Positions 42,796 to 59,811 of a stretch of DNA of 64,000 nucleotides are shown here, piece after piece. The position numbers and the translations under genes were made by a program. The notes beneath the pieces were generated by a model that worked only from the letters and a program-made list of their open reading frames with translations, was not told where the DNA came from and did no database searches. The stretch is from Flavipsychrobacter sp. (GTDB taxonomy: Bacteria > Bacteroidota > Bacteroidia > Chitinophagales > Chitinophagaceae), in assembly GCA_021155965.1 (NCBI GenBank), contig JAJNBJ010000008.1, positions 1 to 64,000 on the forward strand, in the 5' to 3' direction. Numbering within the stretch: position 1 is the first letter of the stretch; each line of letters opens with the position of its first letter.

Positions 42796-45648
42796 TTAGA
42801 GGCCGTACTCCTTGGTCATTTGCTCAACTACAAGGGCAATGGTTTTGTGTAGTTTATTTACCAGCCTTTCTATTTCAGCATCCGGGTCTTCCATAAACTC
42901 GATCTTGACGATATCGTCCCTAAGCGTATTTATACCCAGGTTAGTGATAGAGGGTTTCATGCGGTGGGCATAATATTTAACTGTAGCATAGTCGCCCGTT
43001 TTGTACGCCTCAACCATTTTCTCTACCGCGGGAGGCGTTTCGCCGATAAATAGGTTGAGCATTTTTTTAATGAAGTTTTCGTCATTTCTGCCCATTACCA
43101 GTAGCTTACTAAGGTCGTAGAGGGGCCCGGAAGGTATTTCCTGGGCTGGATTTTTCAACTCCGCCTGCTCATCTTCCCGTACCCGCGCCGGTTCAAATTT
43201 AGGTGCAGGGGCTTCCCCACTTTTGTTCAGCCATTTGGCAATAGGGTTCACCAGGTTCATTTCATTATATGGCTTAAAGATAAAATCGTTCATGCCGGCT
43301 TCTATGAACTGGTGTTCCTTACCTTTAATGGCATTCGCAGTTAGGGCAAGGATGGGTATTGACTTATTGATCTCGCTCCTGATGATCTTAGTGGCTTGTA
43401 TACCATCCATCACCGGCATCTGGATATCCATCAGCACCATGTCGTAGCTGTCCTTCCTCATCATGTCTATTGCCTGTAAGCCATTTTCTGCCTCTGATAT
43501 GATCGCACCATAGTCTGTAAGAATAGTATATGCCAACAGCCTGTTCAGGCCATTGTCCTCTACCAGCAGTATTTTCTTATTGCTGATATTGCCGGTGTCG
43601 GTTTTTACGGTGCGCTTCTTCTCAAATACTTTTGCCGTTCCTTTCTTAAAGCTGAACGTAAGCGAAATGGTAGTGCCTACATTTTTCTTACTGGTAACGG
43701 AAATAGTGCCGCCCATCAATTCCATCAGTTGCTTGGTAATGCTCATGCCAAGCCCGGTACCACCAAACTTACGTACAACCGTTTCATCCTCCTGGGTAAA
43801 CTTATCGAAAATGGTATTCAGGTATTCTTCCTTTATACCTACTCCGGTGTCTTCAATAATTACCAATAGTTTCTGCCAGTCTTCTTTTTCTTCAAGCAAA
43901 AACGCTTTCAGGCATACTGTACCTTTCTCAGTAAACTTTATCGCATTGCTCACCATGTTCATGAATACCTGGTTCACCCGGAATGGGTCGCCCATCAGCA
44001 CAGGTGCAATGCGTTTATCTGTTTCCTGGTAAAGCAGCAAACCTTTTTCTTCAGCCTTATGTGTTAATATACTCACAACCTGCTCTGCAATTGTCTCCAG
44101 GCTGAAGCTTATATTCTCCAAAGTGATCTTGCCCGCTTCGATCTTTGAGAAATCGAGTAGGTCATTGACAATACCCAACAGGTTGGTAGAAGCACTCTCG
44201 ATTCCCTGCAAATAATTTTTTTGCTGTGCATTCAACTCACTCTTACTTAATAGTTTCCCCAAGCCCATGATCGCATTCAACGGCGTGCGTATCTCATGGC
44301 TCATATTGGTGAGGAATATGTCTTTTGATTTGGAAGACCTGTCAGCAAGCTGCTTTGCTTCCTTAAGTTGGCCTTCCATTTTCTTCTGCTCGGTAATGTC
44401 CAAATGAATACTAATTGTGCCTACAACCGTTTCATCCGTATTAAACAGCGGGGTTGCGCTGGTAAGCCACCACTTATTCTCGCCGTTTTTTGTTTGTACA
44501 GCCAGCTCATAATTTGTATGTATCCCATAGCGCTGTTTTGAGAGCTGATCGCGAGTGCGTTTTAGACTTACACCACGTAAAAAAAGATCAGTGGCTGTTT
44601 TTCCCATCAACTCTTGTATCTCATAGCCACTCATGGTACAGAACCGTTGGTTGGCATAGATAATATGCTCATCCTTATCCAATTCTATCATACCAAGGTT
44701 CATATTCTCTATGATACCCTTGTATTTTTCTTCTATTTTCTTCCGTTCAGTAATATCCACTCCATAACCTATCACCATTTCTACTTCACTTTTTTCATCG
44801 AGTACAGGATACATTCTGCGAAGTTGGTATCTGGTGTTCCCATCGGCAAGCTGAAATGTTTCTTCCCATTCCTGCTGCCTTTTTGTCCGCTTTACCTCGT
44901 TAAATATTCTATTCCTGTTTTCAGCCAGCAACATTGGCTTATTTGTATGTATACAATACTCCTCGTTAGTATGGCCTATTATCCATTTGCGGGTTTCCGG
45001 GTTAACAATAGCAGTAGGGTTAACATAAACGAATCTGTGCTCAACATCAACAACAACAATATCTGCAGGTATATTATTTAAAACCTGTTCATAGAATTTT
45101 TTTTGGGCTTCAAATGTATCTCCAATGGTTTTTTGCCGGGTAATGTCTGTAAACCTCCATAAATGTCCCCTAAACACCCCATCTTTGAATATAGGAATAA
45201 AGTCACGGCTATATATCTGGCCGTTTATTAATTGTATTTCTTCATGTAGTACTGCTTTTCGGTCCTTTACTATTTTTTCGCCATTGGCAATATACTGATC
45301 GAGGTCTTTGAATAAGTGTTTGGTTTGATCAAGGAGGTTGGGCCCATAAGTGCCAATAAGAGTGGCGGGCTTTTCTTTTATCCCGAATAACTTGCAAAAA
45401 ACTTCGTTAACTATTACTATATTCCTGTTCTCATCTACCACAAATACACCATCATTCAGGCTGTTGATCAGCTCGTTAAAACGAATGTTAGCATCAGCCA
45501 GTTCATCAGGGCGATCTTCCCTTGTATTTCCCGCCACTTTCTTTCTTAATTCTTCGAGTTCTTTATTCTGAGCAGCAATACGGTCTTTTGCTGCTTTAAG
45601 AATTGCCCGTTCTTTTTCAAGTTGCTCCTGCAGTTCCCTTGTGGTCAT
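42796..45648 (-). CDS. Cytosolic PAS hybrid histidine kinase with REC and Hpt domains
   Basis: A 950-residue sensor without transmembrane helices. In order: a coiled coil (residues 1-45), three PAS-type sensor domains (about 50-420, with the third ending in a PAC-like TGTISIHLDITEQKK), a HisKA dimerisation helix with the phospho-His in NMSHEIRTPLNAIMGLG, and an HATPase domain with N- and G-boxes (FMNMVSNAIKFTEKG, GTGLGMSITKQL). A receiver follows with the phospho-Asp in VLMDIQMPVMDG, and a C-terminal Hpt domain with the relay His in YYAHRMKPSITNLG. It is a four-step phosphorelay in one chain. Seven bases separate it from the preceding response-regulator gene. The signal is likely intracellular (redox, light or metabolite) and unknown. 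Confidence 0.93.
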   Translation of the reverse strand: MTTRELQEQLEKERAILKAAKDRIAAQNKELEELRKKVAGNTREDRPDELADANIRFNELINSLNDGVFVVDENRNIVIVNEVFCKLFGIKEKPATLIGTYGPNLLDQTKHLFKDLDQYIANGEKIVKDRKAVLHEEIQLINGQIYSRDFIPIFKDGVFRGHLWRFTDITRQKTIGDTFEAQKKFYEQVLNNIPADIVVVDVEHRFVYVNPTAIVNPETRKWIIGHTNEEYCIHTNKPMLLAENRNRIFNEVKRTKRQQEWEETFQLADGNTRYQLRRMYPVLDEKSEVEMVIGYGVDITERKKIEEKYKGIIENMNLGMIELDKDEHIIYANQRFCTMSGYEIQELMGKTATDLFLRGVSLKRTRDQLSKQRYGIHTNYELAVQTKNGENKWWLTSATPLFNTDETVVGTISIHLDITEQKKMEGQLKEAKQLADRSSKSKDIFLTNMSHEIRTPLNAIMGLGKLLSKSELNAQQKNYLQGIESASTNLLGIVNDLLDFSKIEAGKITLENISFSLETIAEQVVSILTHKAEEKGLLLYQETDKRIAPVLMGDPFRVNQVFMNMVSNAIKFTEKGTVCLKAFLLEEKEDWQKLLVIIEDTGVGIKEEYLNTIFDKFTQEDETVVRKFGGTGLGMSITKQLMELMGGTISVTSKKNVGTTISLTFSFKKGTAKVFEKKRTVKTDTGNISNKKILLVEDNGLNRLLAYTILTDYGAIISEAENGLQAIDMMRKDSYDMVLMDIQMPVMDGIQATKIIRSEINKSIPILALTANAIKGKEHQFIEAGMNDFIFKPYNEMNLVNPIAKWLNKSGEAPAPKFEPARVREDEQAELKNPAQEIPSGPLYDLSKLLVMGRNDENFIKKMLNLFIGETPPAVEKMVEAYKTGDYATVKYYAHRMKPSITNLGINTLRDDIVKIEFMEDPDAEIERLVNKLHKTIALVVEQMTKEYGL

Positions 45649-45655
45649 AAAACAT

Positions 45656-47005
45656 TTAGTTCAGCGTTAGCTCGTTTGTCTGGATCATTTTGTAAATGGT
45701 AGACTTCCCGATATCCAACTTATCTGCAACTTTGATAACGTTGTTATCGTACTTCTTCAGGAAGTGTTTTATGATGTCAATGGTGTATTCTTTCAGTGTC
45801 TTTTCCATGTCAACAGAGAAGTCGCCGGAGCCTGATGCAAAATGCAGGTCATCTTCTTTAATAACACTGCCATCGCACATTACAGCAGCAAGGTCTATAA
45901 CTGCTTTTAATTCCCTTACATTACCGGGGTACCTGTGCTTCATTAATTTTTCCTTGGCCTCGGGCGATATACTTATGTTGCCCATTTTGTTGCTCTTGCA
46001 AAACTCATCGAGGAAAAATTTAGCAAGCACAAGGATGTCATTCCCCCTTTCTCTCAAAGGCGGCAGGTCTATTGGCAGTCCCATCACGCGATAAAAAAGG
46101 TCTTCCCTGAAGGTGCCTTTTTTTACCTCCTCCAGCAGGTTTTTGTGCGTAGCAACAATAATCCGCACATCAAGTGTTACTTTCTCATTGCCGCCTACAC
46201 GCACCAGTTCCCTTTCCTGCAATACGCGCAAAATTTTGCTTTGCAGGCTCAGGTCAAGTTCCGCTATCTCATCAAGGAAGATAGTTCCGTTATTGGCTTC
46301 TTCAAACTTACCCGCCTTGCGTGCAAGCGCACCGGTAAAAGCCCCCTTCTCGTGGCCGAACAGTTCGCTTTCTATCAATTCGCGGGGAATTGCCGCCATA
46401 TTCACTGCAACAAAAGGTTTCTTTTTCCGGTCAGAATTATAATGGATAGCTTTTGCTATCACTTCTTTACCTGTACCTGTTTCACCGGTCACTGAAACGT
46501 TGATATTTGTACGGGAAGCTTTTTCCAGGAATGAGAATGTTTTCAGCATTGCCGGGCTGTTGCCTTTTATTGCTTTGTTGAAATCATACTTTTGCCCCAG
46601 TTCTTCTTTCAGGTCTTCCACTTCTTTCTTTAAAGACTGATGCTCTTTAATCCGTGTAACAGCATTCCACAAAAGTTCCTTGGTGTTATCATCTTTGATG
46701 AAATAATCAGAGGCCCCATTCCGCAGCAGGTCAACTGCTGTACTCACATCCTCCTGCCCGCTGATAACGATCACCGGCACATCGGGCATTTGTTGTTTTA
46801 TTTTCTTTAAAAGGTCTCCGCCATTTATGTCAGGCAAAGAATAGTCGATACTGATCAAACCAGGCCTTTTCGATAGATTGGCAAGGCATTCTTTTCCGGT
46901 AGTGTATCTGTAAATTTCATGATCAGGATTGAGGGAGAGGTGGTATCCGAGGATTTCGCCATACCATGGGTCATCTTCAACAATAAATATTCTGAATTGT
47001 TCCAT
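45656..47005 (-). CDS. Sigma-54-dependent response regulator (NtrC/AtoC type)
   Basis: A 449-residue transcription activator. The receiver (1-120) has acidic residues in IVEDDPWYG and the phospho-Asp in LISIDYSLPDING. The AAA+ domain (about 155-370) has Walker A GETGTGKEVIAKAI, the sigma-54 contact loop GAFTGA, and Walker B GTIFLDEIAEL. The C-terminal Fis-type HTH reads NVIKVADKLDIGKSTIYKMI. The GAFTGA loop means it should work with RpoN, which is not in this window. First gene of a two-gene operon with the hybrid kinase, and the natural partner of its Hpt domain. Likely targets are the pilin/usher genes on either side (inference). Confidence 0.95.
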   Translation of the reverse strand: MEQFRIFIVEDDPWYGEILGYHLSLNPDHEIYRYTTGKECLANLSKRPGLISIDYSLPDINGGDLLKKIKQQMPDVPVIVISGQEDVSTAVDLLRNGASDYFIKDDNTKELLWNAVTRIKEHQSLKKEVEDLKEELGQKYDFNKAIKGNSPAMLKTFSFLEKASRTNINVSVTGETGTGKEVIAKAIHYNSDRKKKPFVAVNMAAIPRELIESELFGHEKGAFTGALARKAGKFEEANNGTIFLDEIAELDLSLQSKILRVLQERELVRVGGNEKVTLDVRIIVATHKNLLEEVKKGTFREDLFYRVMGLPIDLPPLRERGNDILVLAKFFLDEFCKSNKMGNISISPEAKEKLMKHRYPGNVRELKAVIDLAAVMCDGSVIKEDDLHFASGSGDFSVDMEKTLKEYTIDIIKHFLKKYDNNVIKVADKLDIGKSTIYKMIQTNELTLN

Positions 47006-47229
47006 TAAATGGAAATTTTTATAAAAATAACTGTTTTACATTAATAACAAAAACTAAATATTGATAAAATTTATTCAAAGTCTTAAAAAACATTTCGATA
47101 ACATTTAATTTCCTGTTTCTGGAAAAAACATCTACATGGTGGAATTTTATTGCCCTGCTATCAAGCATTTGTATTGATAATCAACAATTTAAAAAACTGG
47201 CACATTATTGGATAATAGTTTACAAAATC

Positions 47230-47610
47230 ATGGACATGCGCACCACAAAAAATATGAAATTCTTTATTGTTGACGACGATCCATTTTCAAGGATGCTTTA
47301 TCGTCAGCATTTGATAAATCTTGGGTATAAAAACAGTAGCCTTTTTGACAATGGCTCCGACTGCATTGACAAAATAGGCCTGGAGCCGGATCTCGTTCTG
47401 CTTGATTATGATATGCCTGTGTGTAATGGTGTTGAGGTGATAAAGAGGATCAAGAGGATCAATCCCCATATCCATCTGGTAATTGTGTCAGGAGTAAATG
47501 ACGTTGAGGTAGCCCTGGAAGCAAAGAAACATGGGGCAATTGATTATATAATAAAAGGAGAAAGTGACCTTGAAATGATCAGTAACGTGATCAGCATTAT
47601 TAATAATTAA
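47230..47610 (+). CDS. Single-domain response regulator
   Basis: A 126-residue stand-alone receiver. The acidic pair is in FFIVDDDPFSRM, the phospho-Asp in LVLLDYDMPVCNG, and the switch Thr/Ser and Lys in VIVSGV and YIIKGE. No output domain. The start could be the ATG at 47230 or at 47254 (MKFFIVDDD), the latter giving the standard receiver length. Divergent from the sigma-54 regulator and just upstream of the usher operon. It may be an intermediate in the phosphorelay or act by protein contact. Confidence 0.92.
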   Translation: MDMRTTKNMKFFIVDDDPFSRMLYRQHLINLGYKNSSLFDNGSDCIDKIGLEPDLVLLDYDMPVCNGVEVIKRIKRINPHIHLVIVSGVNDVEVALEAKKHGAIDYIIKGESDLEMISNVISIINN

Positions 47611-47759: not shown

Positions 47760-48290
47760 ATGCGAAACATGAAAAAGAAGAACTTATTATTAGTTATATT
47801 ATCAGTGCTGATTGCATTGATAATAAATAATAATTCTTTGGCACAATCAGTAGCAACGGCCGGCGCATCTGCAAATGTTATTATCCCCGTTAGTGTTGTA
47901 AAGACCACGGATATGAACTTTGGCAATGCAGCGGTATCAGCAGTGGGGGGTGGTATCATAACGCTGGCACCCGGAGGGACAAGGACAAGTGGAGCTGGCG
48001 TTACGCTTCCTGCAACAGCAGGAACAGTGGCACCAGCGGGATTTACAGTTACAGGAGCGCCGGGTTATACGTTTTCCATAACATTACCCTCCAGTGCTGT
48101 AATTACCGGCCCAGGTTCGGCAGCGATGACCATTAATGGGTTCACCAGCTTGCCGTCAGGTACGGGTACACTAAATGCAGGAGGTTCGCAAACGCTTGCC
48201 GTAGGGGCATCGCTCAATGTTTCTGCTGCCCAGGTGCCTGGCACCTATACCAATGCTACCGCTGTGCCTGTAACAGTAAATTACAATTAG
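47760..48290 (+). CDS. DUF4402 pilin-like subunit, first gene of the usher operon
   Basis: About 176 residues from ATG 47760 (ATG 47769 is an alternative). The longer GTG frame is not preferred because it lengthens the signal peptide. The signal (MKKKNLLLVILSVLIALIIN) is followed by SANVIIPVSVVKTTDMNFGN, the Gly-rich hairpin, and the C-terminal strand YTNATAVPVTVNYN. This is the DUF4402 fold, related to spore-coat-U/archaic pilin subunits. The N-terminal segment could complete a neighbour's fold by donor-strand exchange. It precedes the chaperone gene by 50 bp and is probably the major repeated subunit (inference). Confidence 0.85.
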   Translation: MRNMKKKNLLLVILSVLIALIINNNSLAQSVATAGASANVIIPVSVVKTTDMNFGNAAVSAVGGGIITLAPGGTRTSGAGVTLPATAGTVAPAGFTVTGAPGYTFSITLPSSAVITGPGSAAMTINGFTSLPSGTGTLNAGGSQTLAVGASLNVSAAQVPGTYTNATAVPVTVNYN

Positions 48291-48340
48291 AACAATTGAA
48301 TTGTTTTAATAAAGGTTAGGTTGGTTTAAATAGTATTTTC

Positions 48341-49198
48341 ATGATCAGATCAGTACCGCTGGTATTTTTATTCAGGTTCCCTATTTATATAATATGCATT
48401 GCGGGAAGCTTACTGTTTTCTCCAACAACGTCTTCAGCTCAGGGCGACCTGCTCATCTCTCCGTTGCGGATAGTATTTGAAGGCGCAAAAAAATCTCAGG
48501 AGATCAATCTTGCCAATGTAGGAAAAGACACTGCAACATATGCCATCTCGGTTGTGGATTACCGTATGAAAGCAGACGGCTCTTTCGAGCAAATTACCGA
48601 ACCCGATTCCGGGCAATATTTTGCAGGCCCATACATAAGGTTTTTCCCAAGAAAAGTGACGTTGGCCCCTAATGAGGCACAGGTAGTAAAGTTGCAAGTG
48701 ATTAAAACAGCCCAGATGGCAGATGGAGAATATCGTTCTCACCTGTACTTCAGGGCGGTGCCCGATGAGAAACCCCTTGGAGAGCAGGCCAAAAAAGATA
48801 CCGGTGGAATATCCATCTCCCTCAAACCTATCTTTGGCATCACTACACCTGTAATACTCAGGGTGGGAGAAAATGATGCGAATGTAATTTTATCCGACCT
48901 GGATTTTACCATACCGAATGATACACCAAGGCTAAGCCTGTCATTCAACCGCACAGGTAAAATGTCTGTTTATGGAGACATTAAAGTAGACCATGTATCT
49001 CCTTCCGGAAAATCCACACAAGTAAAAATAGTAAAGGGCGTGGGGGTATACACACCAATTCCTGCAAGGCGGTTTGCCATGGAGTTGGACAGGGATAAAA
49101 AAGTGGATTACCATAAAGGCAAATTGCACATCACCTATACTTTGCAAACGAGCGATAAATCAGAGAAAAAAGCGGAAGCGGACGTAGAATTAAAATAA
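48341..49198 (+). CDS. PapD-like periplasmic pilus chaperone
   Basis: A 285-residue periplasmic chaperone of the pilus-assembly type, which would cap subunits before delivery to the usher. A signal peptide ends near TSSAQGD. The first Ig-like domain has ISPLRIVFEGAKKSQEINLAN, where the Arg matches the invariant subunit-carboxylate-binding residue of PapD/FimC. It then has ITEPDSGQYFAGPYIRFFPR and the G1 strand EYRSHLYFRAVP. The second Ig domain (FGITTPVILRVGENDANVIL ...) follows. A PapD/FimC-like architecture in Bacteroidota is uncommon. Lysine at the usual G1 position is not obvious. It lies 37 bp before the adhesin gene. Confidence 0.86.
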   Translation: MIRSVPLVFLFRFPIYIICIAGSLLFSPTTSSAQGDLLISPLRIVFEGAKKSQEINLANVGKDTATYAISVVDYRMKADGSFEQITEPDSGQYFAGPYIRFFPRKVTLAPNEAQVVKLQVIKTAQMADGEYRSHLYFRAVPDEKPLGEQAKKDTGGISISLKPIFGITTPVILRVGENDANVILSDLDFTIPNDTPRLSLSFNRTGKMSVYGDIKVDHVSPSGKSTQVKIVKGVGVYTPIPARRFAMELDRDKKVDYHKGKLHITYTLQTSDKSEKKAEADVELK

Positions 49199-49235
49199 TT
49201 ACCATAAACCAGCTTATTTAAAACAGTAGCAAAAA

Positions 49236-52200
49236 ATGAAAAAGAAGATAACATACCTTATTACGTTACTTCTTTGCTCTTTTGGGGTATCTGCCACTAC
49301 CTATTATAACATAGCCAATTCCACCTCACTGCAGTCAACCACCCAATGGGGCGTAAATACAGATGGCAGCGGGGCACATCCTGCTAATTTCACAACATCC
49401 GGCGATGTTTTCAATATATATAATGGCACAACAACCAGCCTCAGCAATAACTGGACACTGGCAAGCGGGGTTACAATAAATATAGGTGACGGGACTTCTG
49501 CAATTACCTTTGAACAAAACAATGAGAATATAACAACCACTTGCACCATCAATGTACGCGCGAACGCCACATTCCTCATCGAAGACGTAACAGTGGGGCA
49601 ATTAGGCACACTTGCTGCAACGAGCACTGTAAATTATGGATCTTCGGATGCCCACATTATACAGGCTGTCTCTTATGGGAACCTGATATATTCCAGTACC
49701 AGCACCAGTGGTTTTTTTGAATCGGGTACCGCAACCGTGAATGTAAGCGGGGATTTTACAATTTCTGACGGGCGGATTACTGTGAACAATACAGCATCTA
49801 CAACGGTCACCGTGAATGTAAGCGGGGATTTTACAATATCGGGAGACGCACGTATTATCCTTGCAAGCAATTCTACCGCCAGCAGCACCATTAATGTTAC
49901 AGGCACAGTGTCTGCCAGTTCTACATCTACCCCGGTAATCAATTTTTGTTCTGTGACCTCCTCGACAGGTGGTGTCTCTATTTTCCAGGCAAATGGGAAT
50001 GTGACCCTGAATGGCACCAACACAAACATTATTGAATGGGGTAACGGCACAATAAGCAGTAACTATTTCGGGGTAAAGGGCAACCTCACCATAACAGGCT
50101 CAGGCAGATTGAATACAGCTTCATCAACGACCCCTGCAATCGGGTTTATTTTTAATGGAACAGGGATACAGACTCTAACAAATAACAGTACAGGCTCCAC
50201 AAGCAGTACGGAATGTTCATACCAGGTCAATTCCGGGGCGTACGTCAGATTGGGCGCTAACCTTGTTCTCGGAACCGGCACAACCATACATTCCGATATT
50301 ACCGTACTAAGCGGCGGAACACTTGACTGCCAGGGATACAATATAAGTGGGGGATCTACCGGTGGCGGAGGTTGCATTGTTAATTCCGGCGCACGTTTAA
50401 TTACCGCCCACACCGGCGGCATCAATTCAAGTGTCACTGCCACAGGGTCAACATTCAGCAGCGGGGCAAACTATGAGTTCAATGGCACGTCGGCGCAAGT
50501 GACGAGCACAGGGCTTCCGTCTTCAATTGTATCACCCGGCTCATTGACCATAGCCAACAATGCCGGGGTAACACTTTCCCAATCTACATCATTTTCTTCA
50601 GGTGCAACGTTAAACATGGAGGACGGTACGTTTACCATCGGATCCAGCTTGTCCATGTCCAGCGGCTCAAATGTAGTGAGGGACGATGGTGCGCTCAGTG
50701 CCACTCCATCTACCTATAGTGGTGTTAACCTTAGTTATGCGAATCTTGGCATTAATACCTCTGCAATTACTACCGCAAATGAATTTCCGGCTTCGTTCAC
50801 GGGAAACGTAACTGTAAATAAAACAGGGGCAACAATAACATTAAATAATACAAAGACGCTTACCGGTGCCCTTACACTTACGGCAGGCACCCTTGATGCT
50901 TCATCATCAAATTATGACATATCGCTAACCAGCAACTGGACAAACAATGCAGGAAGTGCGGCATTTACTGCCCGAACAGCAACAGTAACGATGAATGGCT
51001 CAAGTTCGCAAACAATTGGCGGCAGCAGCGGCACTTCTTTTAATGACCTGAAAATAAATAACAGTGCTGGTGTGACACTGAGCGTTGCAACAACTTTTGC
51101 TTCAGGCGATACATTGAGCTTGCAAAATGGTGCATTTACCGTTGGCAGTAATTTATCTATGATCAGCGGCTCTAACCTGATACGCGATAACGGCACACTT
51201 AGCGCCACTCCTGCTACATACAACGGCGTGAATCTCACTTACGCCAACCTTGGCAATAACGCATCTGCAGTAACCACCGGCAACGAATGGCCGTCATCTT
51301 TTAACGGAAATGTCACCATCAGCAAAACAGGCGCTACCATTACGCTGAATAATACAAAAACTGCCACAAGCTCAATTACCCTTACCGCAGGCACACTTGA
51401 TGCGTCAGCTTCTAATTATGGCGTATCATTGTCCGGCAACTGGACAAATAATTCCGGGGGTACTGCATTTACGGCAAGAAGCGGCACAGTAACTTTTAAT
51501 GGCTCATCTGCACAATCAATAAGTGGTTCTGCAACAACCTCATTTAATAATTTCACAAACAGTAACAGCAGCGCCGCTGTTGCTGTAAATAGTAATATAA
51601 ATGTCAGCGGCACACTGAATATGAATGGCGCTGCCACTCTTTTAACACCGGTATCAACGGTTGTTATCAACTCATCGGCAGCAGTGGGCACTATATCTGG
51701 TAGCGGGACTATACAAGTTACAAGGACAGCCGCTACCGCTGATTATGTGAACCAGTATAAATTTTCAACGAATACACTTACCGGCATGACCGTTGATTAT
51801 GCCGGCGCCGGTACACAGGCAATTAACAGCACTGTTGGTACTTATGGCGGGATCAAAACAAGCGGCAGCGGCACAAAAACTTTAACCGGCGCTATTACCG
51901 CAGGCAGCAATGGCATAACCATTGGCAGCGGCACAACCCTGGATGTATCCTCATCGAACTATCAGGTAACGAATGGTGGTAACTGGACAAACAGTGGGAC
52001 ATTTACCTCCCAGTCAGGAACAGTTGTATTCAACGCTACAACTACGGGCAAGACACTTTCAGGCACAATGACCGGCAGCAATAAATTCTACAATCTCACT
52101 TTCAACGGAACTGGCGGCGCATGGTCATTTGGCTCCAACTCTGCCGATATTGGCAATAACTTTACGATAACCACCGGAACTGTAACCGCTCCATCATCCA

Positions 52201-54044
52201 CCCTGCAGGTAGCAGGAAACTGGAGCAACAGCGGCACTTTTACCAACAACAGCGGCACAGTTACTATGAATGCTACCTCAACAGGTAAAACGCTCTCAGG
52301 CTCAATGACCGGCAGCAATAAATTTCACAACCTGACTTTTAATGGCAGTGGCGGGGCATGGTCATTCGGTTCAACAGCAGCGGATGTTGGCAATAATTTC
52401 ACCATTACTACGGGAACCGTTACCGCTGCATCATCTACCTTACAGGTAGCAGGCAACTGGAGCAACAGCGGCACATTTACACATAACAGCGGTCTCGTAA
52501 CATTCAATAAAACCGGGGCGCAAACTATCAGCGGTTCATCATCAACGGCATTCAACAGCCTGACGATCGGTTCTGCCAGCGTTACAACATTGAGTACCTC
52601 GGGGCATACAGTAAGAAGCATCCTTCAATGCAACGATACGCTGAATGCAAACGGCAACCTGACGTTATTATCCTCCTCAGCCCAAACAGCATTGATAGAC
52701 GGTGCAGGAACGGGGAAAGTGCTAGGCAATGTAACCATGCAGCGTTACCTTGATTCAGCTTATGGGTACAGGTATTTAAGCTCTCCATTCGAGGCGGCCA
52801 CTTTGAGCCAGTTGTCCAGCTATATTAACTTCTCTTCAACATTCCCTAACTTCTACCGTTATAACGAAAATGTGAATTATAACGGATGGGTAAAAGACAC
52901 CCTTCTGACAGATACACTGCAACCTTGCCATGGCTACGCAGCAAATTACGGCGCATCCACTTCCTCGGTTACTATTTCGCTTAACGGCACAGTAAACAAC
53001 GGCAGCTTATCAAGGACTTTGTATAATAACAACCAGGCTTATACGCAAGGATTTAACCTTGTAGGCAACCCATACCCTTCCCCCATCAACTGGACAGCAT
53101 CAAGTGGCTGGACAAAAACGAACATTGATAATGCAGTGTATTACTTTAAGCATAGTGACACCAACCGGTATTATGGCCGTTATAGCTCTTACATAAGCGG
53201 AGTGTCCAGCGATGGCATTGCGAGTAACATTATCCCGGCTATGCAGGGCTTCTTTGTGCACGTATCCAATGGCTCTTACCCGGTAACAGGAACGCTTGGC
53301 TTCAGTAATACTGTAAGGACCACTAATCTTACCCCATATTATTTTAAACCCACAGCCGACAGGCCACTGGTACGTCTGGATGCAGGCTTTACGAATAACA
53401 GCAATAATACAGACCCTGCCGTGGTCTATTTTGATGATAACGCAACCGCCAATTTCGACTCTGAACTGGATGCCCTTAAACTGATGAACACTGACGCAGG
53501 TGTGCCCAGCCTTTATTCCCAGTCATCAGATGAAAAGACCTACTCTATACAGTCATTAAAAACATTCACTGATAGCGTGACCACAGTGCCACTGGGGTTA
53601 AAGACCGATCATGACGGCTTAGTGAAATTCAATGTGAGAAACATCGAAAACATTGCACCCGGTATGCACATATGGTTTTATGATGCGCAAACAGGCATTG
53701 TCCAGGACCTGAAAACTAACCCGCAATACCAGGTGCAGTTAACCTCTGGCAAGTACGAAAAGAGGTTCTACCTCCAGTTCACCGAAGGCAGCTTTACAAA
53801 TATACCTGGTGTAACCGGCGAGTTAAATGCATTTAGCTCAGGTGGGAATTTGTATGTTTACCTTATTGATGACAAGGCAGGGCTGACGGTTACAGATGTT
53901 TCAGGGCGCGTTCTTGTTGCGCAGGAACTGGAAGGCCAGGGCTACCATGAAATAAAACTACACCCGGGAAGCGGTATATATATTGTAACGCTCTATTCAA
54001 AATCCGGAAAACGATCTAAAAAAGTATTTATAGGCAACGACTGA
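49236..54044 (+). CDS. 1602-residue repetitive surface adhesin with T9SS sorting domain
   Basis: A very large secreted protein with a signal peptide (MKKKITYLITLLLCSFGVSA). Most of it is Ser/Thr/Asn/Gly-rich beta-helix-like repeat (short strands ending in NWTNN, GSG, TLTAGTLDAS). Two internal duplications are clear: a unit of about 170 residues (DNA near 50647 and 51157) and one of about 79 residues (near 52043 and 52281). Four cysteines in all are far apart. After a non-repetitive region (about residues 1170-1500), the last 75 residues are a type A T9SS sorting domain ending in SGRVLVAQELEGQGYHEIKL ... SKKVFIGND. Exported by T9SS, it would sit at the surface. Its position between chaperone and usher genes is odd. 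Confidence 0.85.
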   Translation: MKKKITYLITLLLCSFGVSATTYYNIANSTSLQSTTQWGVNTDGSGAHPANFTTSGDVFNIYNGTTTSLSNNWTLASGVTINIGDGTSAITFEQNNENITTTCTINVRANATFLIEDVTVGQLGTLAATSTVNYGSSDAHIIQAVSYGNLIYSSTSTSGFFESGTATVNVSGDFTISDGRITVNNTASTTVTVNVSGDFTISGDARIILASNSTASSTINVTGTVSASSTSTPVINFCSVTSSTGGVSIFQANGNVTLNGTNTNIIEWGNGTISSNYFGVKGNLTITGSGRLNTASSTTPAIGFIFNGTGIQTLTNNSTGSTSSTECSYQVNSGAYVRLGANLVLGTGTTIHSDITVLSGGTLDCQGYNISGGSTGGGGCIVNSGARLITAHTGGINSSVTATGSTFSSGANYEFNGTSAQVTSTGLPSSIVSPGSLTIANNAGVTLSQSTSFSSGATLNMEDGTFTIGSSLSMSSGSNVVRDDGALSATPSTYSGVNLSYANLGINTSAITTANEFPASFTGNVTVNKTGATITLNNTKTLTGALTLTAGTLDASSSNYDISLTSNWTNNAGSAAFTARTATVTMNGSSSQTIGGSSGTSFNDLKINNSAGVTLSVATTFASGDTLSLQNGAFTVGSNLSMISGSNLIRDNGTLSATPATYNGVNLTYANLGNNASAVTTGNEWPSSFNGNVTISKTGATITLNNTKTATSSITLTAGTLDASASNYGVSLSGNWTNNSGGTAFTARSGTVTFNGSSAQSISGSATTSFNNFTNSNSSAAVAVNSNINVSGTLNMNGAATLLTPVSTVVINSSAAVGTISGSGTIQVTRTAATADYVNQYKFSTNTLTGMTVDYAGAGTQAINSTVGTYGGIKTSGSGTKTLTGAITAGSNGITIGSGTTLDVSSSNYQVTNGGNWTNSGTFTSQSGTVVFNATTTGKTLSGTMTGSNKFYNLTFNGTGGAWSFGSNSADIGNNFTITTGTVTAPSSTLQVAGNWSNSGTFTNNSGTVTMNATSTGKTLSGSMTGSNKFHNLTFNGSGGAWSFGSTAADVGNNFTITTGTVTAASSTLQVAGNWSNSGTFTHNSGLVTFNKTGAQTISGSSSTAFNSLTIGSASVTTLSTSGHTVRSILQCNDTLNANGNLTLLSSSAQTALIDGAGTGKVLGNVTMQRYLDSAYGYRYLSSPFEAATLSQLSSYINFSSTFPNFYRYNENVNYNGWVKDTLLTDTLQPCHGYAANYGASTSSVTISLNGTVNNGSLSRTLYNNNQAYTQGFNLVGNPYPSPINWTASSGWTKTNIDNAVYYFKHSDTNRYYGRYSSYISGVSSDGIASNIIPAMQGFFVHVSNGSYPVTGTLGFSNTVRTTNLTPYYFKPTADRPLVRLDAGFTNNSNNTDPAVVYFDDNATANFDSELDALKLMNTDAGVPSLYSQSSDEKTYSIQSLKTFTDSVTTVPLGLKTDHDGLVKFNVRNIENIAPGMHIWFYDAQTGIVQDLKTNPQYQVQLTSGKYEKRFYLQFTEGSFTNIPGVTGELNAFSSGGNLYVYLIDDKAGLTVTDVSGRVLVAQELEGQGYHEIKLHPGSGIYIVTLYSKSGKRSKKVFIGND

Positions 54045-54050
54045 TCTTTT

Positions 54051-54569
54051 ATGAACGCACGGTATTTATCCGGAAGAAAAATATTGCTCACAGTTTCAGG
54101 GATATTTGCCTTGCTGTTATCAGTGCGTACAAATGCACAGCAACTCCCGCCACGCCCTATATCTGTATCGTGGAACCCATCTTTAGGGTTGCGTTTTGGC
54201 GCTTTTTTTGCCACCACATCCGGTGGCACGGTCAGCGTTTCCCCGGCAGGTGTGCGTACTGCCACGGGCAACCTGATATTGGCTGACTTCGGTTACGTCT
54301 TCGGCGCGGCGAGTTTTGAAATAGTTGCTGCCCCTGGCACACAGATCAATTTGCTGAACGGCCCAACTGTAACGCTTAACGGAAGTGCGGGAGGATCAGT
54401 ATCTTTGACGCTTGGGTCTTCGTCGCCGTCATCGCCTTTTGTGACAACAGCTACCCCACCTGCTGCCAATATCGTGAACATCGGGGGTACACTCACTGTA
54501 GGTAGTTCTGTGGCGAGCCCGCCCGGCGCTTATTCCGGATCTTTTTACCTTACATTTTTCCAGGAATAA
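54051..54569 (+). CDS. Second DUF4402-like subunit, candidate tip or anchor
   Basis: A 172-residue protein with a signal peptide (about 1-30, ending NAQQ). The core matches the other two DUF4402 proteins in order: LRFGAFFATTSGGTVSVSPAG parallels FGNAAVSAVGGGIITLAPGG. The C-terminus is different: PGAYSGSFYLTFFQE in place of the conserved VPVTVNYN. In donor-strand systems a subunit with an altered end often serves as tip or terminator, so a minor role is likely (inference). It starts 6 bp after the adhesin stop and 33 bp before the usher. Confidence 0.75.
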   Translation: MNARYLSGRKILLTVSGIFALLLSVRTNAQQLPPRPISVSWNPSLGLRFGAFFATTSGGTVSVSPAGVRTATGNLILADFGYVFGAASFEIVAAPGTQINLLNGPTVTLNGSAGGSVSLTLGSSSPSSPFVTTATPPAANIVNIGGTLTVGSSVASPPGAYSGSFYLTFFQE

Positions 54570-54602
54570 GCACTGGACCCTATAAATGATGCGTAAAAAG
54601 GA

Positions 54603-57600
54603 ATGACCGATAATATTACTGCTTCTGCTCAAACACACATAACGGGTACAGGCCTTGTCCCCTGGTGGAAGTTAACCCTCTTTATTTTACTTGCTGTCTT
54701 TCTGCCACAATGGCTTCATGCACAAAATGAAGAACCGATGGGCGATGAAATAACCGTAACACTTGAAGTAAAAGGCGTGGGCAATGTTGATGTACCTGCA
54801 ATGTATAACGATAAGGATGTTTTCCTTTCTGTCACAGCTGTTTTTGATTTCCTGAAGATAAAGAATATCCCTTCCCCTACATTGGATACGGTAAAAGGGT
54901 TTATACTGACAGAGAAAGATGCTTTCCTTCTGGACAGGCCACACAACCGCATTTATTACCAGGGTAAGGTTATTGACCTGCAGGATGGCTTTATGCATAC
55001 CGAAACAAGCCTGTACCTGAACCTGAAGTATTTCAAATCGGTTTTCGGGCTGGATGGAACGTTTTACTTCCGCAGGCTTGTGGTGACCATGAGCTCCGAT
55101 TTTGAATTGCCCATCATCCGCGAAATGCGGCAGGAGCTGATGCGCCGCAACCTGAACAAGCTGAAGGGGGACCAGAAGGCCGATACCTTCATCAATTTGC
55201 GCAGGCCATTATTTCACCTGGGCGCTGCCGATTGGGCGGTAATGTCGTCGCAGCAATCCCAGGGGGCAGACCAGACTACTTTAAACCTCGGGCTGGGTGG
55301 CGCACTCCTGGGCGGCGAAGCAAATGCCTCATTGAACTATTACAGCAACCAGGCATTCTCAGAAAAACAGCAATTCTATCAGTGGCGGTATGTTAACAAC
55401 GGCCTTAGTGCCATGAGGCAAGTCATAGCTGGTAAAATATTCACCCAGGCTACCTCTTCATTGTTTGCGCCGGTTGTTGGTGTGCAGGTAACCAATGCAC
55501 CAACCACCTACCGCCAGTCCTACGGTACTTACCGGCTGAGCAATACCACAGAACCTAACTGGATAGTGGAGCTTTACGTGAACGATGTGCTGGTTGACTA
55601 CACCAGGGCAGATGCTTCCGGCTTTTACTCATTTGACGTGCCGCTTTTTTATGGCTTCACAACCGTGAAGCTGAAGTTTTACGGGCCATATGGCGAGCAG
55701 CGCACCAACCAGCAATACATCAATATCCCATTCAACTTCCTGCCCAAGGGTGAATTCGAATACTCCGCCAGCGCCGGCATTGTTGAAGATGACAAGGGCA
55801 GCCAGTTCTCCCGGGTGAACATGAAGTACGGCCTGTCGTCGAAGATAACGATGGGAGGTGGCGTGGAGTACCTTTCCTCAGTTGTTTCCGGCACTACTAT
55901 GCCATTCATCAGCACATCTGTGAGGCTTACATCGCGGATGCTGTTCTCGGGTGAGTATATGCATGGTGTCCGGTCAAGAGGTTTATTGAGCTACCGGATG
56001 AAGGGGGGCGCACAGATAGACCTCGACTATACTAAGTATGCAAAGGGCCAAACCGCCATTTACTTCAACTACCTTGAAGAGCGAAAAGCGGTCATTACAG
56101 CGCCCATCCGCACGAAGAAGATGTCGTTGTTTTCCCGGCTCACGCTCGACCAGATCATTGTACCCAACACCCAATACACCAACATCGAATGGGCCATGTT
56201 AGGGTTCTATAAGAAAGTGGGCATCAACTTTACCACTTATGCATCTGTTATCCCAAGGCAGGCTGAAAAAGTCCCTTACCTGTATAGTATAGCTTCTGTT
56301 ACCGTGCCGTTGCCGTTTAAAATTTTAATGACCTCGCAAGTTCAGTATAACTTTAAGGAAGGCACGCCTATTTTTGCACGGTTCAATTTCGAGAAGCATT
56401 TGTTCACCAAAGGGGTACTCACCTTTGGTTACCAGGAATACTTCAATATTAACCAGAGGAATTTCCTCCTGGGGCTGCGGTACGATTTCTCGTTTGCCAG
56501 GGCTGCTGTTTCTCTCCTCTCCGGCAGCGATGGGTCCTACAGCCGCGTTGAGGCTGCTTCCGGAAGCCTGGTCTTTGATGCCAGGTCGAACTTCATCAAC
56601 GCCAACAACCGCACCAATGTAGGCAAGGCCGGTATCCTCATCAGGCCGTTCCTTGACTTTAACGGCAACAACCAGTGGGACAAAGGCGAACCCAAAGCAC
56701 CGGGGCTGAAGATACGCATCAATGGCGGGCGCGTGATCAATGACGAGCGGGACACCAGCATACGCATACTGGACCTCGAGCCCTACTTCAAGTACTACAT
56801 AGAGCTGAACAGGAGCAGCTTCGACAACATATCGTGGCAGGTACGCAATACAACACTTAGTGTTACTGCCAGCCCGAACGGTTTTACACGCGTGGAAGTG
56901 CCCATACGTGTAGTTGGCGAAGTTTCCGGCAGTGTATCTGTACAAAACAAAGATACCGATAAACCCAGGGGGCAGGGACAGATCAGTGTTGTTATTTATG
57001 ACAGCAGCAGTATGGTGGTTGGCAAGGCCATAACCGAATCGGATGGGTACTTCAGCTATCTTGGCCTGGTGCCGGGGTCTTATACGGTAAGGATAGATTC
57101 CGTGCAACTGAACAACCTGCATTATACCTCGCAGCCCGGCGCTATACCTGTTACTATCAGATCGAACATGGACGGTGATGTGGCAGATGGGCTGGAGTTT
57201 GTGTTGACCTCTACAGCCAAAGACACTACGGGCAAGCTTGTTGAAAAAGAGACCGTGACAGATCCTGTAAAGAAAGATACTGCTGAATTGCAAAAACCAA
57301 TTGTTAAACAGCCGGTGCAGAAAGACACTGTTGTACAACAAAAGCCGGTTGTGCAGCAGCCAGTGAAAGAACCCAAGCCTGCAGAAACACAACCTGCCGG
57401 TGAAGTTATAGGCGAGAAAGGCAGCTACGCAATACTTGTGGAAGTTTATGGCGATATAACCCCTGCAGCTATACTGAAAACGAAGATCATACATGCCTAC
57501 AAGGTGCCTGTATCTATTATGCAGGACGGCATAGACTACAAGGTAGAGATGGTTGGGTTTAAGAGCAGGGCCGAGGCCGCCAAACACCTGCCGCGACTGA

Positions 57601-57659
57601 GAGAATGGGGCTTCCCAGAGGCGCTGATCATTAAGCTGAAGGAGCATATCCTCAGGTAA
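54603..57659 (+). CDS. Outer-membrane usher-like protein with SPOR-like C-terminus
   Basis: A 1018-residue outer-membrane protein. A signal-like hydrophobic segment (about 20-41) is preceded by an unusual 20-residue polar leader. Residues 45-150 are an N-terminal domain (ITVTLEVKGVGNVDVPAMYN) of possibly usher-type recognition role. From about 200 to 680 the sequence has the repeated amphipathic strands of a large beta barrel, with the usher-like FYSFDVPLFYGFTTVKLKFY and YGPYGEQRTNQQYINIPFNF. Residues 690-730 (FLDFNGNNQWDKGEPKAPGL) are a SdrD B-like repeat, then a carboxypeptidase-regulatory-like beta domain (GYFSYLGLVPGSYTVRIDSV). After a Pro/Gln/Thr linker, the last 75 residues resemble an SPOR peptidoglycan-binding domain (YKVEMVGFKSRAEAAKHLPR). 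Usher assignment is by pattern only. Confidence 0.78.
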   Translation: MTDNITASAQTHITGTGLVPWWKLTLFILLAVFLPQWLHAQNEEPMGDEITVTLEVKGVGNVDVPAMYNDKDVFLSVTAVFDFLKIKNIPSPTLDTVKGFILTEKDAFLLDRPHNRIYYQGKVIDLQDGFMHTETSLYLNLKYFKSVFGLDGTFYFRRLVVTMSSDFELPIIREMRQELMRRNLNKLKGDQKADTFINLRRPLFHLGAADWAVMSSQQSQGADQTTLNLGLGGALLGGEANASLNYYSNQAFSEKQQFYQWRYVNNGLSAMRQVIAGKIFTQATSSLFAPVVGVQVTNAPTTYRQSYGTYRLSNTTEPNWIVELYVNDVLVDYTRADASGFYSFDVPLFYGFTTVKLKFYGPYGEQRTNQQYINIPFNFLPKGEFEYSASAGIVEDDKGSQFSRVNMKYGLSSKITMGGGVEYLSSVVSGTTMPFISTSVRLTSRMLFSGEYMHGVRSRGLLSYRMKGGAQIDLDYTKYAKGQTAIYFNYLEERKAVITAPIRTKKMSLFSRLTLDQIIVPNTQYTNIEWAMLGFYKKVGINFTTYASVIPRQAEKVPYLYSIASVTVPLPFKILMTSQVQYNFKEGTPIFARFNFEKHLFTKGVLTFGYQEYFNINQRNFLLGLRYDFSFARAAVSLLSGSDGSYSRVEAASGSLVFDARSNFINANNRTNVGKAGILIRPFLDFNGNNQWDKGEPKAPGLKIRINGGRVINDERDTSIRILDLEPYFKYYIELNRSSFDNISWQVRNTTLSVTASPNGFTRVEVPIRVVGEVSGSVSVQNKDTDKPRGQGQISVVIYDSSSMVVGKAITESDGYFSYLGLVPGSYTVRIDSVQLNNLHYTSQPGAIPVTIRSNMDGDVADGLEFVLTSTAKDTTGKLVEKETVTDPVKKDTAELQKPIVKQPVQKDTVVQQKPVVQQPVKEPKPAETQPAGEVIGEKGSYAILVEVYGDITPAAILKTKIIHAYKVPVSIMQDGIDYKVEMVGFKSRAEAAKHLPRLREWGFPEALIIKLKEHILR

Positions 57660-58345: not shown

Positions 58346-59680
58346 TTACTCTTTGAGTATTTTATTTATGGTGCGGTTGCCGTTGGGGGCGGTGAGGTGG
58401 AGGAGGTAGATGCCGGGAGGCAGGTGCTGTATGGATATGGTGTTCGTGGCTTCTTTTAGTGTGCCGGAGTGCAGTGTTGCGCCTACGAGATTTACTAATT
58501 GGTAGGTGGTGTTGGGTGTTGTGTACTGGATATGGAGGAGAGAGGATGTGGGGTTGGGGTAAATGGAGATTTCTCGTGAAGGTAGCTGTTCTACGGTTCC
58601 TAAATAATTGCATTTGGGGAAAGTTATTTTACGTACCACCCAACTGTTTTTTTCCGGTGTGTATATATTACCACATGAATCTAAAGCTATGCCCGCCGGG
58701 AAAGCTAGTTCAGCGGCTGTTGCGGGCCCGCCATCGCCACTGTACCCACTAGTGCCGGTCCCGGCAATTGTATATATATAGCCGCTAGCATTCACCATCC
58801 TAATTCTATGAAAGTAAGATTCTGCTATAAAAATATTGCCAAACTTATCTATTGTAATATAATTGGGTCGTACACCAGCGGCAGTAGCCGGACCTCCATC
58901 ACCACTATGTCCACCTAAGCCATTGCCAATAAAATAACTGATTATACCCGACGACAAGTTTATTTTAAATATCCTGCTATGATCATTGGACATATAAAGA
59001 ATATTATTGGCCTCTACTATCCCCATAGGATTAATAGACGCCGATGTTGCCGGGACTCCATCAGAGCCAATGCCGATACCAGCGATTCCATTACCTGCTA
59101 CTGTAGAGATTATCCCACCAGGCGTCACCTTCCTGATTCTATAATTAACGCCGTCAGTGATATACAAATTTTGATTGTCATCAAAGCATAGGCAATTTGG
59201 TGTATTTAATTTTGCATTCGTAGCGGGACCTCCATCGCCGCTAAATCCAGCTACCCCTGTACCAGCGAAAGTTGTTACTATACCTGTCGTTTTATCTATC
59301 CGGCGAATACAATTATTGTAAGCATCGGCAATATACATATTGTATGAAGAATCAAATGCTAAATCTGAAATATGCGCGAATGTAGCCGCAGTTGCAGGTC
59401 CACCATCACCCGAATACGCCGAAGCACCTGTTCCAGCAAAATTGGTCATAATTCCACTTGCATCTATTTTCCTAATGCGTTTGCCATAAGCTCCAAGGCC
59501 CAAATAGTAGTTGCCACTTTTGTCGAATAGTATTTTTGTTGGGTAATTAAATGAAGCCGCAGTTGCAGCCCCCCCCTCCCCAGTATTCGCCTGTATGCCG
59601 TTACCCGCAATTGTAGTAATTATCTGTCCCTGCGTTATAACAGGCACAAAAAACAGCAGTATAAAAAGCAGCTTTTTCAT
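58346..59680 (-). CDS. Secreted NHL-repeat beta-propeller protein with T9SS sorting domain
   Basis: A 444-residue protein from ATG 59680 (signal MKKLLFILLFFVPVITQG). The in-frame extension upstream to 60172 runs across repeats and the higB region and is not preferred. It has six similar blade units, each about 55-60 residues, marked by IAGxG and GYSGDGGPATAA-type strands, forming a propeller of the NHL/YncE type. Six blades are visible, so the ring is six-bladed or one blade is degenerate. The last 75 residues are a type A T9SS sorting domain (ISIYPNPTSSLLHIQYTTPN ... GIYLLHLTAPNGNRTINKIL). It is exported by T9SS and likely held at the surface. The ligand is unknown. Confidence 0.88.
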   Translation of the reverse strand: MKKLLFILLFFVPVITQGQIITTIAGNGIQANTGEGGAATAASFNYPTKILFDKSGNYYLGLGAYGKRIRKIDASGIMTNFAGTGASAYSGDGGPATAATFAHISDLAFDSSYNMYIADAYNNCIRRIDKTTGIVTTFAGTGVAGFSGDGGPATNAKLNTPNCLCFDDNQNLYITDGVNYRIRKVTPGGIISTVAGNGIAGIGIGSDGVPATSASINPMGIVEANNILYMSNDHSRIFKINLSSGIISYFIGNGLGGHSGDGGPATAAGVRPNYITIDKFGNIFIAESYFHRIRMVNASGYIYTIAGTGTSGYSGDGGPATAAELAFPAGIALDSCGNIYTPEKNSWVVRKITFPKCNYLGTVEQLPSREISIYPNPTSSLLHIQYTTPNTTYQLVNLVGATLHSGTLKEATNTISIQHLPPGIYLLHLTAPNGNRTINKILKE

Positions 59681-59710
59681 GTAGGTAAAATTAGGGCAGT
59701 GGCAGGCATT

Positions 59711-59738
59711 AAAAAATAGGTATAAATACCTATTTTTT
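59711..59738. promoter_or_regulatory. 28-bp perfect palindrome between divergent genes
   Basis: AAAAAATAGGTA-TAAA-TACCTATTTTTT, a 12-bp inverted repeat 31 bp upstream of the NHL gene. Either an operator or a hairpin that stops read-through between the divergent NHL and higBA genes. Confidence 0.5.
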
Positions 59739-59760
59739 GTGTGAGGGGATTGTTGTATGG

Positions 59761-59811
59761 GTCTGAACTCGAATTTCTGGAATTTTGAGAATTTTTGGAA
59801 TGGGTGTTGAT
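59761..59811 (+). repeat. GTCTGAACTCGAATTT repeat, plus-strand copy
   Basis: Same family as 6192-6139 (minus): GTCTGAACTCGAATTT, spaced GAATTT blocks, ending GTGTTGAT. It lies directly upstream of higB. Confidence 0.65.

Follow-up and report, generated by a model that had tools for sequence, protein, structure and literature searches.

Do Bacteroidota assemble surface fibres by a chaperone-usher pathway? This question is raised by a group of genes in a 64,000-nucleotide stretch of Flavipsychrobacter sp. DNA (assembly GCA_021155965.1, contig JAJNBJ010000008.1, positions 1 to 64,000), called here the window. Five open reading frames (ORFs) follow one another on its + strand and encode a small DUF4402 protein (called here D1, 47760-48290), a PapD-like periplasmic chaperone (48341-49198), a large repetitive surface protein (49236-54044), a second DUF4402 protein (called here D2, 54051-54569) and a predicted usher (54603-57659), with gaps of 50, 37, 6 and 33 bp. 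The initial annotation had described a pilus operon of five same-strand genes separated by 6-50 bp, and this layout was confirmed together with the ORF coordinates. We consider it very likely that the locus represents a branch of the chaperone-usher pathway in Bacteroidota and works like a pilus assembly line. The computed basis of this reading consists of the architecture and fold match of the usher, the homology of the chaperone, the gene order, the co-occurrence of the genes across genomes, type IX secretion system (T9SS) tails and a shared promoter motif. Chaperone-usher hairs have been described mainly from Proteobacteria; what looks like such a system is present here in Bacteroidota, and no earlier report of it was found in the open-access literature.

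The source is a 4.25-Mb draft genome of 50 contigs, in which DUF4402 was matched 12 times, the chaperone once and the usher once. The closest relatives come from records of uncultured Bacteroidetes, Taibaiella, Chitinophagaceae and Flavipsychrobacter, and the operon is also present in several Chitinophaga type strains.

The last gene of the operon encodes a predicted usher

The 1018-residue protein was modelled with AlphaFold2 from 64 sequences (mean predicted local distance difference test, pLDDT, 83; predicted template modelling score 0.59). A manual strand count on the model gave an N-terminal domain at residues 48-165, six barrel strands at 204-297, a sandwich at 306-369, eighteen barrel strands at 385-659 and C-terminal immunoglobulin-like (Ig-like) sandwiches at 676-870, followed by a disordered linker and a final domain of β-α-β-β-α-β order. 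The sandwich inserted between strands 6 and 7 is the predicted plug (about residues 306-369, DSSP of the model; 55518-55709, + strand). It was modelled at lower confidence than the barrel, with pLDDT blocks of 56-72, and holds a conserved VELY.N motif, on which our scan of the genome collection for relatives was based. The predicted model thus combines an N-terminal domain, a 24-strand barrel with a plug and two C-terminal domains, the layout of 24 strands with a plug after strand 6 being that of FimD and PapC.

When the model was compared with the PDB by Foldseek, 116 matches were obtained at E ≤ 0.001, and ranks 1 to 18 were all FimD or PapC (E 7.9e-27 to 4.7e-12; target-normalised TM-scores 0.43-0.59). 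An hhalign comparison of the usher alignment with EcpC alone gave E 0.01 and led no further. By fold and profile, the 1018-residue protein is predicted to be a member of the usher superfamily. The usher-like β-barrel of the initial annotation was borne out, and the proposal of a gated usher barrel survived the structure prediction that had been set beforehand as its possible refutation.

Regarding other barrels, the fold list below rank 18 contained Ig-rich Gram-positive surface proteins and, near E 1e-5, OprD-type and LptD barrels, among the best 50 of the 116 matches. An assignment to OprD, LptD or another porin was rejected because such folds came only near 1e-5, far behind the ushers.

The second gene encodes a PapD-superfamily chaperone with mixed anchor residues

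The profile of the 285-residue protein matched eight E. coli K-12 chaperones by hhalign at E 1.5e-7 (probability 94), and a wider profile did so at E 2.5e-8. On these profile matches the protein is assigned to the PapD-superfamily chaperones; with the conservation of Pro103 and the position of its gene beside that of the usher, it has the features of a dedicated chaperone. Conservation was read from 68 chaperones, 38 from close relatives and 30 from a second set of loci, most of which are distant. Pro103 is present in 68/68. According to the accessible part of PMC4654587, one proline is the sole invariant residue across the PapD superfamily, and in a manual alignment Pro103 appears to correspond to it by way of the proline of EcpB.

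The residues that would anchor the subunit carboxylate are less uniform. Arg43, which aligns with the classical FimC arginine, occurs in 38/38 close chaperones and in 8/30 of the second set. Arg132, which aligns with Arg89 of EcpB in a weak hhalign match (alignment A4 against EcpB alone, E 0.12), is likewise found in 38/38 close chaperones and in 9/30 of the second set, where tryptophan takes the position in 18/30. Tyr237 and Arg204 are each retained in 64/68, the latter, by manual reading, not at the column of EcpB Arg148. The non-classical positions were taken from an EcpB search that returned EcpB, CfaA-type chaperones and others, not CsuC. Classical chaperones are described, in the accessible part of PMC4654587, as holding the carboxylate by two basic residues of chaperone domain D1, and non-classical ones by an arginine of that domain with a tyrosine and an arginine of domain D2. 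The anchor thus mixes classical and non-classical residues and does not settle the class of the chaperone. Of the PapD-like chaperone with a conserved subunit-binding arginine that had been proposed, the homology stood, as did Arg43 among close relatives; its conservation did not extend to the second set.

D1 and D2 are DUF4402 proteins with different termini

D1 (176 residues, with a signal peptide) and D2 (172 residues) both match Pfam DUF4402 above the cut-off (7.4e-26 and 2.6e-17, respectively) and form one family by hhalign (E 8e-24). The structure of D1, modelled along with that of the usher, is a β sandwich (pLDDT 90) whose first strand begins at residue 45; with cleavage placed after residue 28, as read manually, about 16 N-terminal residues of the mature protein lie outside the sheets. 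Both DUF4402 proteins resemble pilins; the evidence for a pilin fold is weak, as detailed below.

The predicted mature N-terminus of D1 lies about 24 residues before an NFG motif. Among relatives, the distance from the mature N-terminus to the FG motif is 24-30 residues in 25/25 parsed D1 proteins versus 23 or fewer in 63/66 parsed D2 proteins, most often 18 in D2, with a proline-rich start (the parse left out 1/26 D1 and 10/76 D2). For comparison, the donor strand of CupE comprises 13 residues, according to the accessible part of PMC10104325. The C-termini differ as well. D1 ends in VTVNYN and D2 in LTFFQE, and the penultimate residue is tyrosine or phenylalanine in 26/26 D1 versus glutamine in 54/76 D2, which bears out the divergent end noted earlier for the second subunit. 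A glycine fourteenth from the end is present in 12/26 D1 and 75/76 D2; a penultimate aromatic residue and this glycine form the signature of chaperone-usher pilins. The shorter, proline-rich N-terminus suggests that D2 may accept a strand and not donate one, as for a tip subunit, and D2 is a candidate for this role.

The genes recur together in Bacteroidota

A scan of a collection with one genome per species yielded 335 relatives, of which the best 80 were kept for gene-order counts. Alignments were built from 29/34 extracted relatives (A1), 63/80 ushers (A3), 35/38 chaperones (A4), 45/76 D2 (A5), 25/26 D1 (A6) and, for the wider chaperone set, 6/38 close and 26/29 second-set sequences (A12). 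A D2 gene lies directly upstream of the usher gene in 76/80 loci. A chaperone gene was found in the same upstream run in 38/80 and was missing from 13; in the other 29 the run meets the edge of the fetched stretch, often after passing through an adhesin gene. Where the order is complete, it most often reads D1, chaperone, adhesin, D2, usher. Besides ten loci with a D2-usher pair only, considered below, the chaperone-less loci comprise two with an adhesin-like gene farther upstream (L082, L116) and one with two ushers (L051).

In the second set, composed of 36 mostly distant loci (usher identity about 25% in many), a chaperone gene lies near or next to the usher gene in 30/36 and directly upstream of it in 22/36, as counted by eye, and several DUF4402-like genes often precede it. 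No chaperone was seen in L151, L152, L155, L158, L160 and L164, the adhesin gene filling the view in L160 and L164. It should be noted that three of these loci from f37 genomes (L151, L152, L158) carry very divergent usher-like proteins of 817-847 residues, with a gene of about 517-536 codons directly upstream and no recognised chaperone beside the usher-like gene; f37 genomes give weaker chaperone matches (E 1e-14 to 1e-17). These loci possibly form another sub-branch.

Co-occurrence was then counted in 296 Bacteroidota genomes. An usher match located in barrel or plug was present in 63, and DUF4402 in 47, all of them within those 63 (47/63 versus 0/233; Fisher p 3e-41, the genomes being related and not independent). 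Strong chaperone matches (E ≤ 1e-30) were found in 55/63 usher genomes and 0/233 others. In a family sample of 60 genomes, usher and DUF4402 occurred in the same six. The 63 usher-positive genomes were hand-picked from 109 with matches, the criterion being that a match to barrel or plug was listed; the other 46 had matches only to C-terminal domains or the SPOR region, or lay outside the matches listed (to about E 3e-4). G169 (E 2.2e-7, region 702-832) was classed as usher-negative and G178 (E 1.4e-11, region 263-380) as usher-positive. The Pfam DUF4402 model is independent of the surveyed genomes.

Taken together, neighbourhood and genome counts place the five-gene arrangement far above chance expectation. 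The predicted co-occurrence of PapD-like and DUF4402 genes with the usher in other genomes held at both levels, and the same gene order recurs in the survey of Bacteroidota that had been called for, the adhesin gene being optional. Chance clustering of the operon genes was rejected on the genome-level co-occurrence counts.

The 1602-residue protein carries a T9SS signal

The large protein between chaperone and D2 (1602 residues) has a T9SS type A C-terminal signal above the NCBIfam cut-off (TIGR04183, 25 bits for a cut-off of 23; 30.4 bits with the tail alone), the only one found among the five operon proteins. The same signal was matched in 54/54 scanned tails encoded upstream of D2, in 53 relatives and in the window; the set (A10) comprised 53/54 upstream large ORFs, that of L051 being omitted as not adhesin-like. 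The genome encodes SprA (2439.7 bits), the component covered by our T9SS search, and at least 150 T9SS tails (150 of 244 candidates scored). With its type A sorting domain in a genome carrying SprA, the protein qualifies as T9SS cargo, and these tails, together with SprA, make export by the T9SS, a route specific to Bacteroidota, and not by the usher most likely. The giant T9SS-targeted adhesin of the initial annotation is therefore upheld in its targeting, and its role as a part of the pilus is not established: in 9/38 loci that show a chaperone, no adhesin gene lies between chaperone and D2 (L048, L049, L052, L059, L068, L086, L089, L090, L115; L068 has one downstream of the usher).

On the opposite strand, two genes beyond the downstream end of the operon also encode likely T9SS cargo: an NHL-repeat protein (58346-60172, - strand) and a repetitive protein that bears a T9SS tail (60923-63943, - strand).

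The usher ends in a SPOR-like domain

The final domain of the usher (about residues 930-1018; 57390-57656, + strand) was modelled with a mean pLDDT above 88 across nearly all of its length. Besides its β-α-β-β-α-β order, the usher family profile matched the SPOR structure 1x60 at E 0.0055, and at 0.039 in a second search. Among ushers over 950 residues, to which the scan was confined (the other 26/80 have 950 or less), Pfam SPOR was matched at E ≤ 0.1 in 31/49 tails, and not in that of the window usher. The tail set (A11) comprised 48/54 long usher tails of relatives, six having been dropped because they ran off the stretch or looked unsafe. SPOR domains bind peptidoglycan.

In f23-labelled genomes, the SPOR part of the usher profile is also matched by genes of about 545-665 aa that lie within a few kb of several distant ushers (for example G155:C4:64256-64888 and G246:C1:2616123-2616782); the locus there may include a second SPOR protein.

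A σ54-like site lies beside the operon and before dispersed pilin copies

Upstream of the operon lie genes for a hybrid sensor kinase with PAS, HisKA, HATPase and receiver domains (42796-45648, - strand), an NtrC-type σ54 activator divergent from the operon (45656-47005, - strand; Sigma54_activat 9.2e-69) and a single-domain response regulator (47230-47610, + strand; Response_reg 1e-21). These three (42796-47610) are probable regulators of the pilus. The transcription unit may start upstream of 47760 with the response-regulator gene as its first gene; between the end of this gene and the first DUF4402 gene lie 149 bp. Sites were recognised by the σ54 promoter consensus, and the pattern occurs twice in the window: as TGGCACATTATTGG (47198-47211, + strand), which starts 32 bp before the response-regulator start codon, and at 42662-42677 (- strand), before a solitary D1-type pilin gene at 42.1-42.6 kb (42088-42609, - strand).

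This solitary gene (L003) is one of seven other D1-type genes spread over six contigs (with L001, L002, L004, L005, L007 and L008), which are 84.7-92.7% identical across 467-773 bp by BLAST. Two are cut by contig ends. The similarity stops at most about 180 bp upstream of the start codon and 80 bp downstream of the stop codon, and the surroundings are unrelated. A strict motif, TTTGGCAYNNNNTTGG, has 11 matches in the genome, versus 1 for the reversed control; 7 of the 11 immediately precede the seven pilin copies. Pilin amplification seems only occasional, since the other five genomes with an usher in the family sample each have two DUF4402 matches, and twelve were found in G313 of the phylum sample. 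Beside one dispersed copy lies a divergent 162-residue DUF4402 protein (G000:C24:27558-27938), a possible minor subunit.

In relatives, a response regulator and an activator stand beside the operon in 4/80 loci, all of them close (L047, L048, L049, L050; the activator is cut by the stretch edge in L050); many other loci of the 80 do not extend far enough upstream to show regulators. The kinase gene adjoins in L048 and L049 and also in L047, where the edge truncates it. σ54-like sites precede the response-regulator gene in L047, L048 and L049 and none was found there in L050; one further occurrence of the pattern, in L049, is intragenic, and a site of this kind is also found with a pilin copy in L048.

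Discussion

The results lead us to infer polymerisation, donor-strand exchange, a tip role, tethering, regulation, adhesion and fibre formation along the following lines. DUF4402 subunits would reach the periplasm by Sec and be held there by the PapD-like chaperone, and the plug-gated usher barrel would polymerise and export them into a surface fibre. Donor-strand exchange using the N-terminal extension of D1 is the most likely means of joining subunits, and the role of D2, with its shorter proline-rich N-terminus, is most likely to start or cap the fibre. The giant protein would arrive at the surface separately by the T9SS and probably acts as an adhesin alongside the fibre. On the periplasmic end of the usher, the SPOR domain would tether it to peptidoglycan in many relatives and probably here. 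The σ54 promoter with the adjacent kinase and NtrC-type activator probably switches on the operon and the dispersed pilins together. Combined into a single organelle fed by two routes (a separate Bacteroidota chaperone-usher lineage with DUF4402 fibres, a SPOR-tethered usher, a T9SS-delivered adhesin, and the major pilin supplied in trans from dispersed copies under one σ54 regulon), these steps make a more tentative proposal, which is possible and which we would not put forward as the probable one.

A number of observations weigh against the chaperone-usher reading. Neither the usher alone nor its whole genome matches the Pfam Usher model PF00577, and among the 296 Bacteroidota genomes this model gave 3 matches, all below the cut-off and all inside relatives of this usher. 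We conclude that the miss reflects the reach of the Pfam model and not biology, the fold result being the stronger evidence. The usher profile also aligned weakly with seven E. coli ushers (E 2e-4, probability 46), from the plug onward through the barrel. For the chaperone, the best Pfam match is fn3_5 (2.4e-5; 25.4 of 27.6 bits) and only the second is PapD_N (1.6e-4; 22.1 of 23 bits), both below their cut-offs; at E ≤ 0.1, fn3_5 was matched in 34/36 family members and PapD_N in 26/36. Against PDB sequences, the wider chaperone profile found Gram-positive WxL-interacting proteins first (E 0.022) and PapD at 0.75, the only chaperone-usher match in PDB sequence searches with chaperone, usher and D1. 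The residues that would anchor the subunit vary across the chaperone family, as described above. Regarding the subunits, Foldseek with the D1 model gave 271 PDB matches at E ≤ 10, none at E ≤ 0.001 and the best at 0.039; in the top 25, 18 are entries from chaperone-usher pili, a point in favour of the reading (CfaB; subunits of the type 1 pilus, FimG and FimH among them; Csu; and Caf1), and the remaining 7 a fish-virus haemagglutinin-esterase and a glycosidase. The D1 profile gave an unconvincing match to E. coli pilins (E 0.0044, probability 8).

The survey contributes further points of this kind. In 10 of the 13 chaperone-less loci only a divergent D2-usher pair is present (L058, L062, L064, L067, L069, L076, L079, L088, L095, L118; seven Bacteroidales records and three Bacteroidetes). 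No DUF4402 was matched at E ≤ 0.001 in 16/63 usher genomes, several of which have divergent DUF4402-like genes beside the usher by a purpose-built profile. At the same threshold the chaperone profile matched 62/63 usher genomes and also 36/233 usher-less ones (best match there 5.4e-19), showing that weaker PapD-like proteins exist without an usher. The usher and chaperone profiles (A1, A12) were partly built from surveyed genomes, which favours recall there.

Three other explanations of the locus were considered. The barrel and chaperone could export the DUF4402 proteins one by one, or as short strands resembling a capsule, as a secretion or coating device derived from the chaperone-usher pathway that makes no pilus. 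The faint likeness of D1 to known pilins in fold and profile would suit such a device, as would a supposed donor-strand region that is rich in alanine and threonine and not strongly hydrophobic. However, D1 proteins retain an N-terminal extension (24-30 residues in 25/25 parsed), the usher has all the modules for stepwise assembly and the D1-type subunit is amplified in the genome, as suits a polymer, so that we regard this explanation as improbable. Still less probable, to the point that we give it very little credence, is an operon serving the T9SS adhesin, in which the DUF4402 proteins, chaperone and barrel would mount or present the giant protein. In most loci where the place is visible, a large protein with a T9SS tail is indeed encoded directly upstream of D2, and 54/54 tails carry the signal. 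Yet nine loci lack such a gene between chaperone and D2, the usher directly follows the chaperone in 22/36 second-set loci, and the genome has at least 150 T9SS tails for one usher, which indicates that T9SS cargo in general needs no usher.

The last alternative accepts a chaperone-usher system and places it in the known archaic (σ) class, not in a separate branch. Archaic systems are a widespread class, for which the accessible part of PMC10104325 names proteobacteria, cyanobacteria and Deinococcota, and that of PMC9452303 reports occurrence in a wide range of phyla. Arg132, at the position of the non-classical carboxylate-binding arginine in 38/38 close relatives (by the weak EcpB alignment), and Tyr237, kept in 64/68 chaperones, point in the same direction. 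By contrast, tryptophan replaces Arg132 in 18/30 second-set chaperones, and Arg43 occupies the classical FimC anchor position, absent from archaic chaperones according to the accessible part of PMC4654587. Spore-coat-U type subunits were also not found: in Pfam, D1, D2 and 25 D1 relatives matched DUF4402 and chance-level families only, and none of the searches made linked DUF4402 to spore-coat U. We therefore consider membership of the archaic class rather unlikely. The archaic-type composition that had been claimed is not established.

If the locus is indeed a chaperone-usher branch in Bacteroidota, it widens the pathway to a phylum in which a different type of pilus is the best known, and offers a deep branch from which the divergence of classical and archaic systems can be studied. 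It would give DUF4402, a domain of unknown function, a testable role as a pilin, couple a fibre-assembly locus with a T9SS adhesin and suggest a peptidoglycan-anchored form of usher. Family searches miss the system, usher and chaperone being below the Pfam cut-offs. Our search of the open-access literature, with subscription journals and preprints mostly outside its scope, returned no paper with DUF4402, alone or with chaperone-usher; judged by listings, it held nothing relevant on chaperone-usher in Bacteroidetes, Bacteroidota or Flavobacteria, a description elsewhere being possible, and nothing relevant on SPOR with usher.

Comparison with known systems

Type V (FimA/Mfa1) pili are surface fibres of Bacteroidota, as the fibre proposed here would be. 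To our knowledge, they have not been described as using a chaperone and an usher, and the present locus differs from them in having both and in lacking a fimbrillin domain and a lipobox cysteine. A type V pilus was rejected because no fimbrillin Pfam match was obtained and no lipobox was seen in D1 or D2, whose signal peptides, inspected by eye, end in alanine before glutamine with no cysteine at the predicted cleavage site. With T9SS surface adhesins, the locus shares the type A tail of the 1602-residue protein, in a genome with SprA and at least 150 such tails; the other four operon proteins, unlike these adhesins, showed no such tail.

Archaic Csu/CupE pili resemble the system in their wide distribution, in the likeness of Arg132 and Tyr237 to the CsuC/EcpB carboxylate anchor and in the presence of Csu entries among the D1 fold matches listed. 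They differ in that here no spore-coat-U match was obtained, no two-domain tip adhesin was recognised in the operon and the anchor residues vary in distant relatives. Compared with type 1 and P pili (FimC-FimD-FimA, PapD-PapC-PapA), the locus has DUF4402 subunits, an additional chaperone arginine at a non-classical position, a SPOR-like usher tail and a T9SS protein in the operon, and it scores below the Usher and PapD_N cut-offs. What it shares with them is the module order and predicted fold of the usher, a PapD-superfamily chaperone whose Arg43 aligns with the FimC arginine, and small secreted, putatively Ig-like subunits encoded in one operon.

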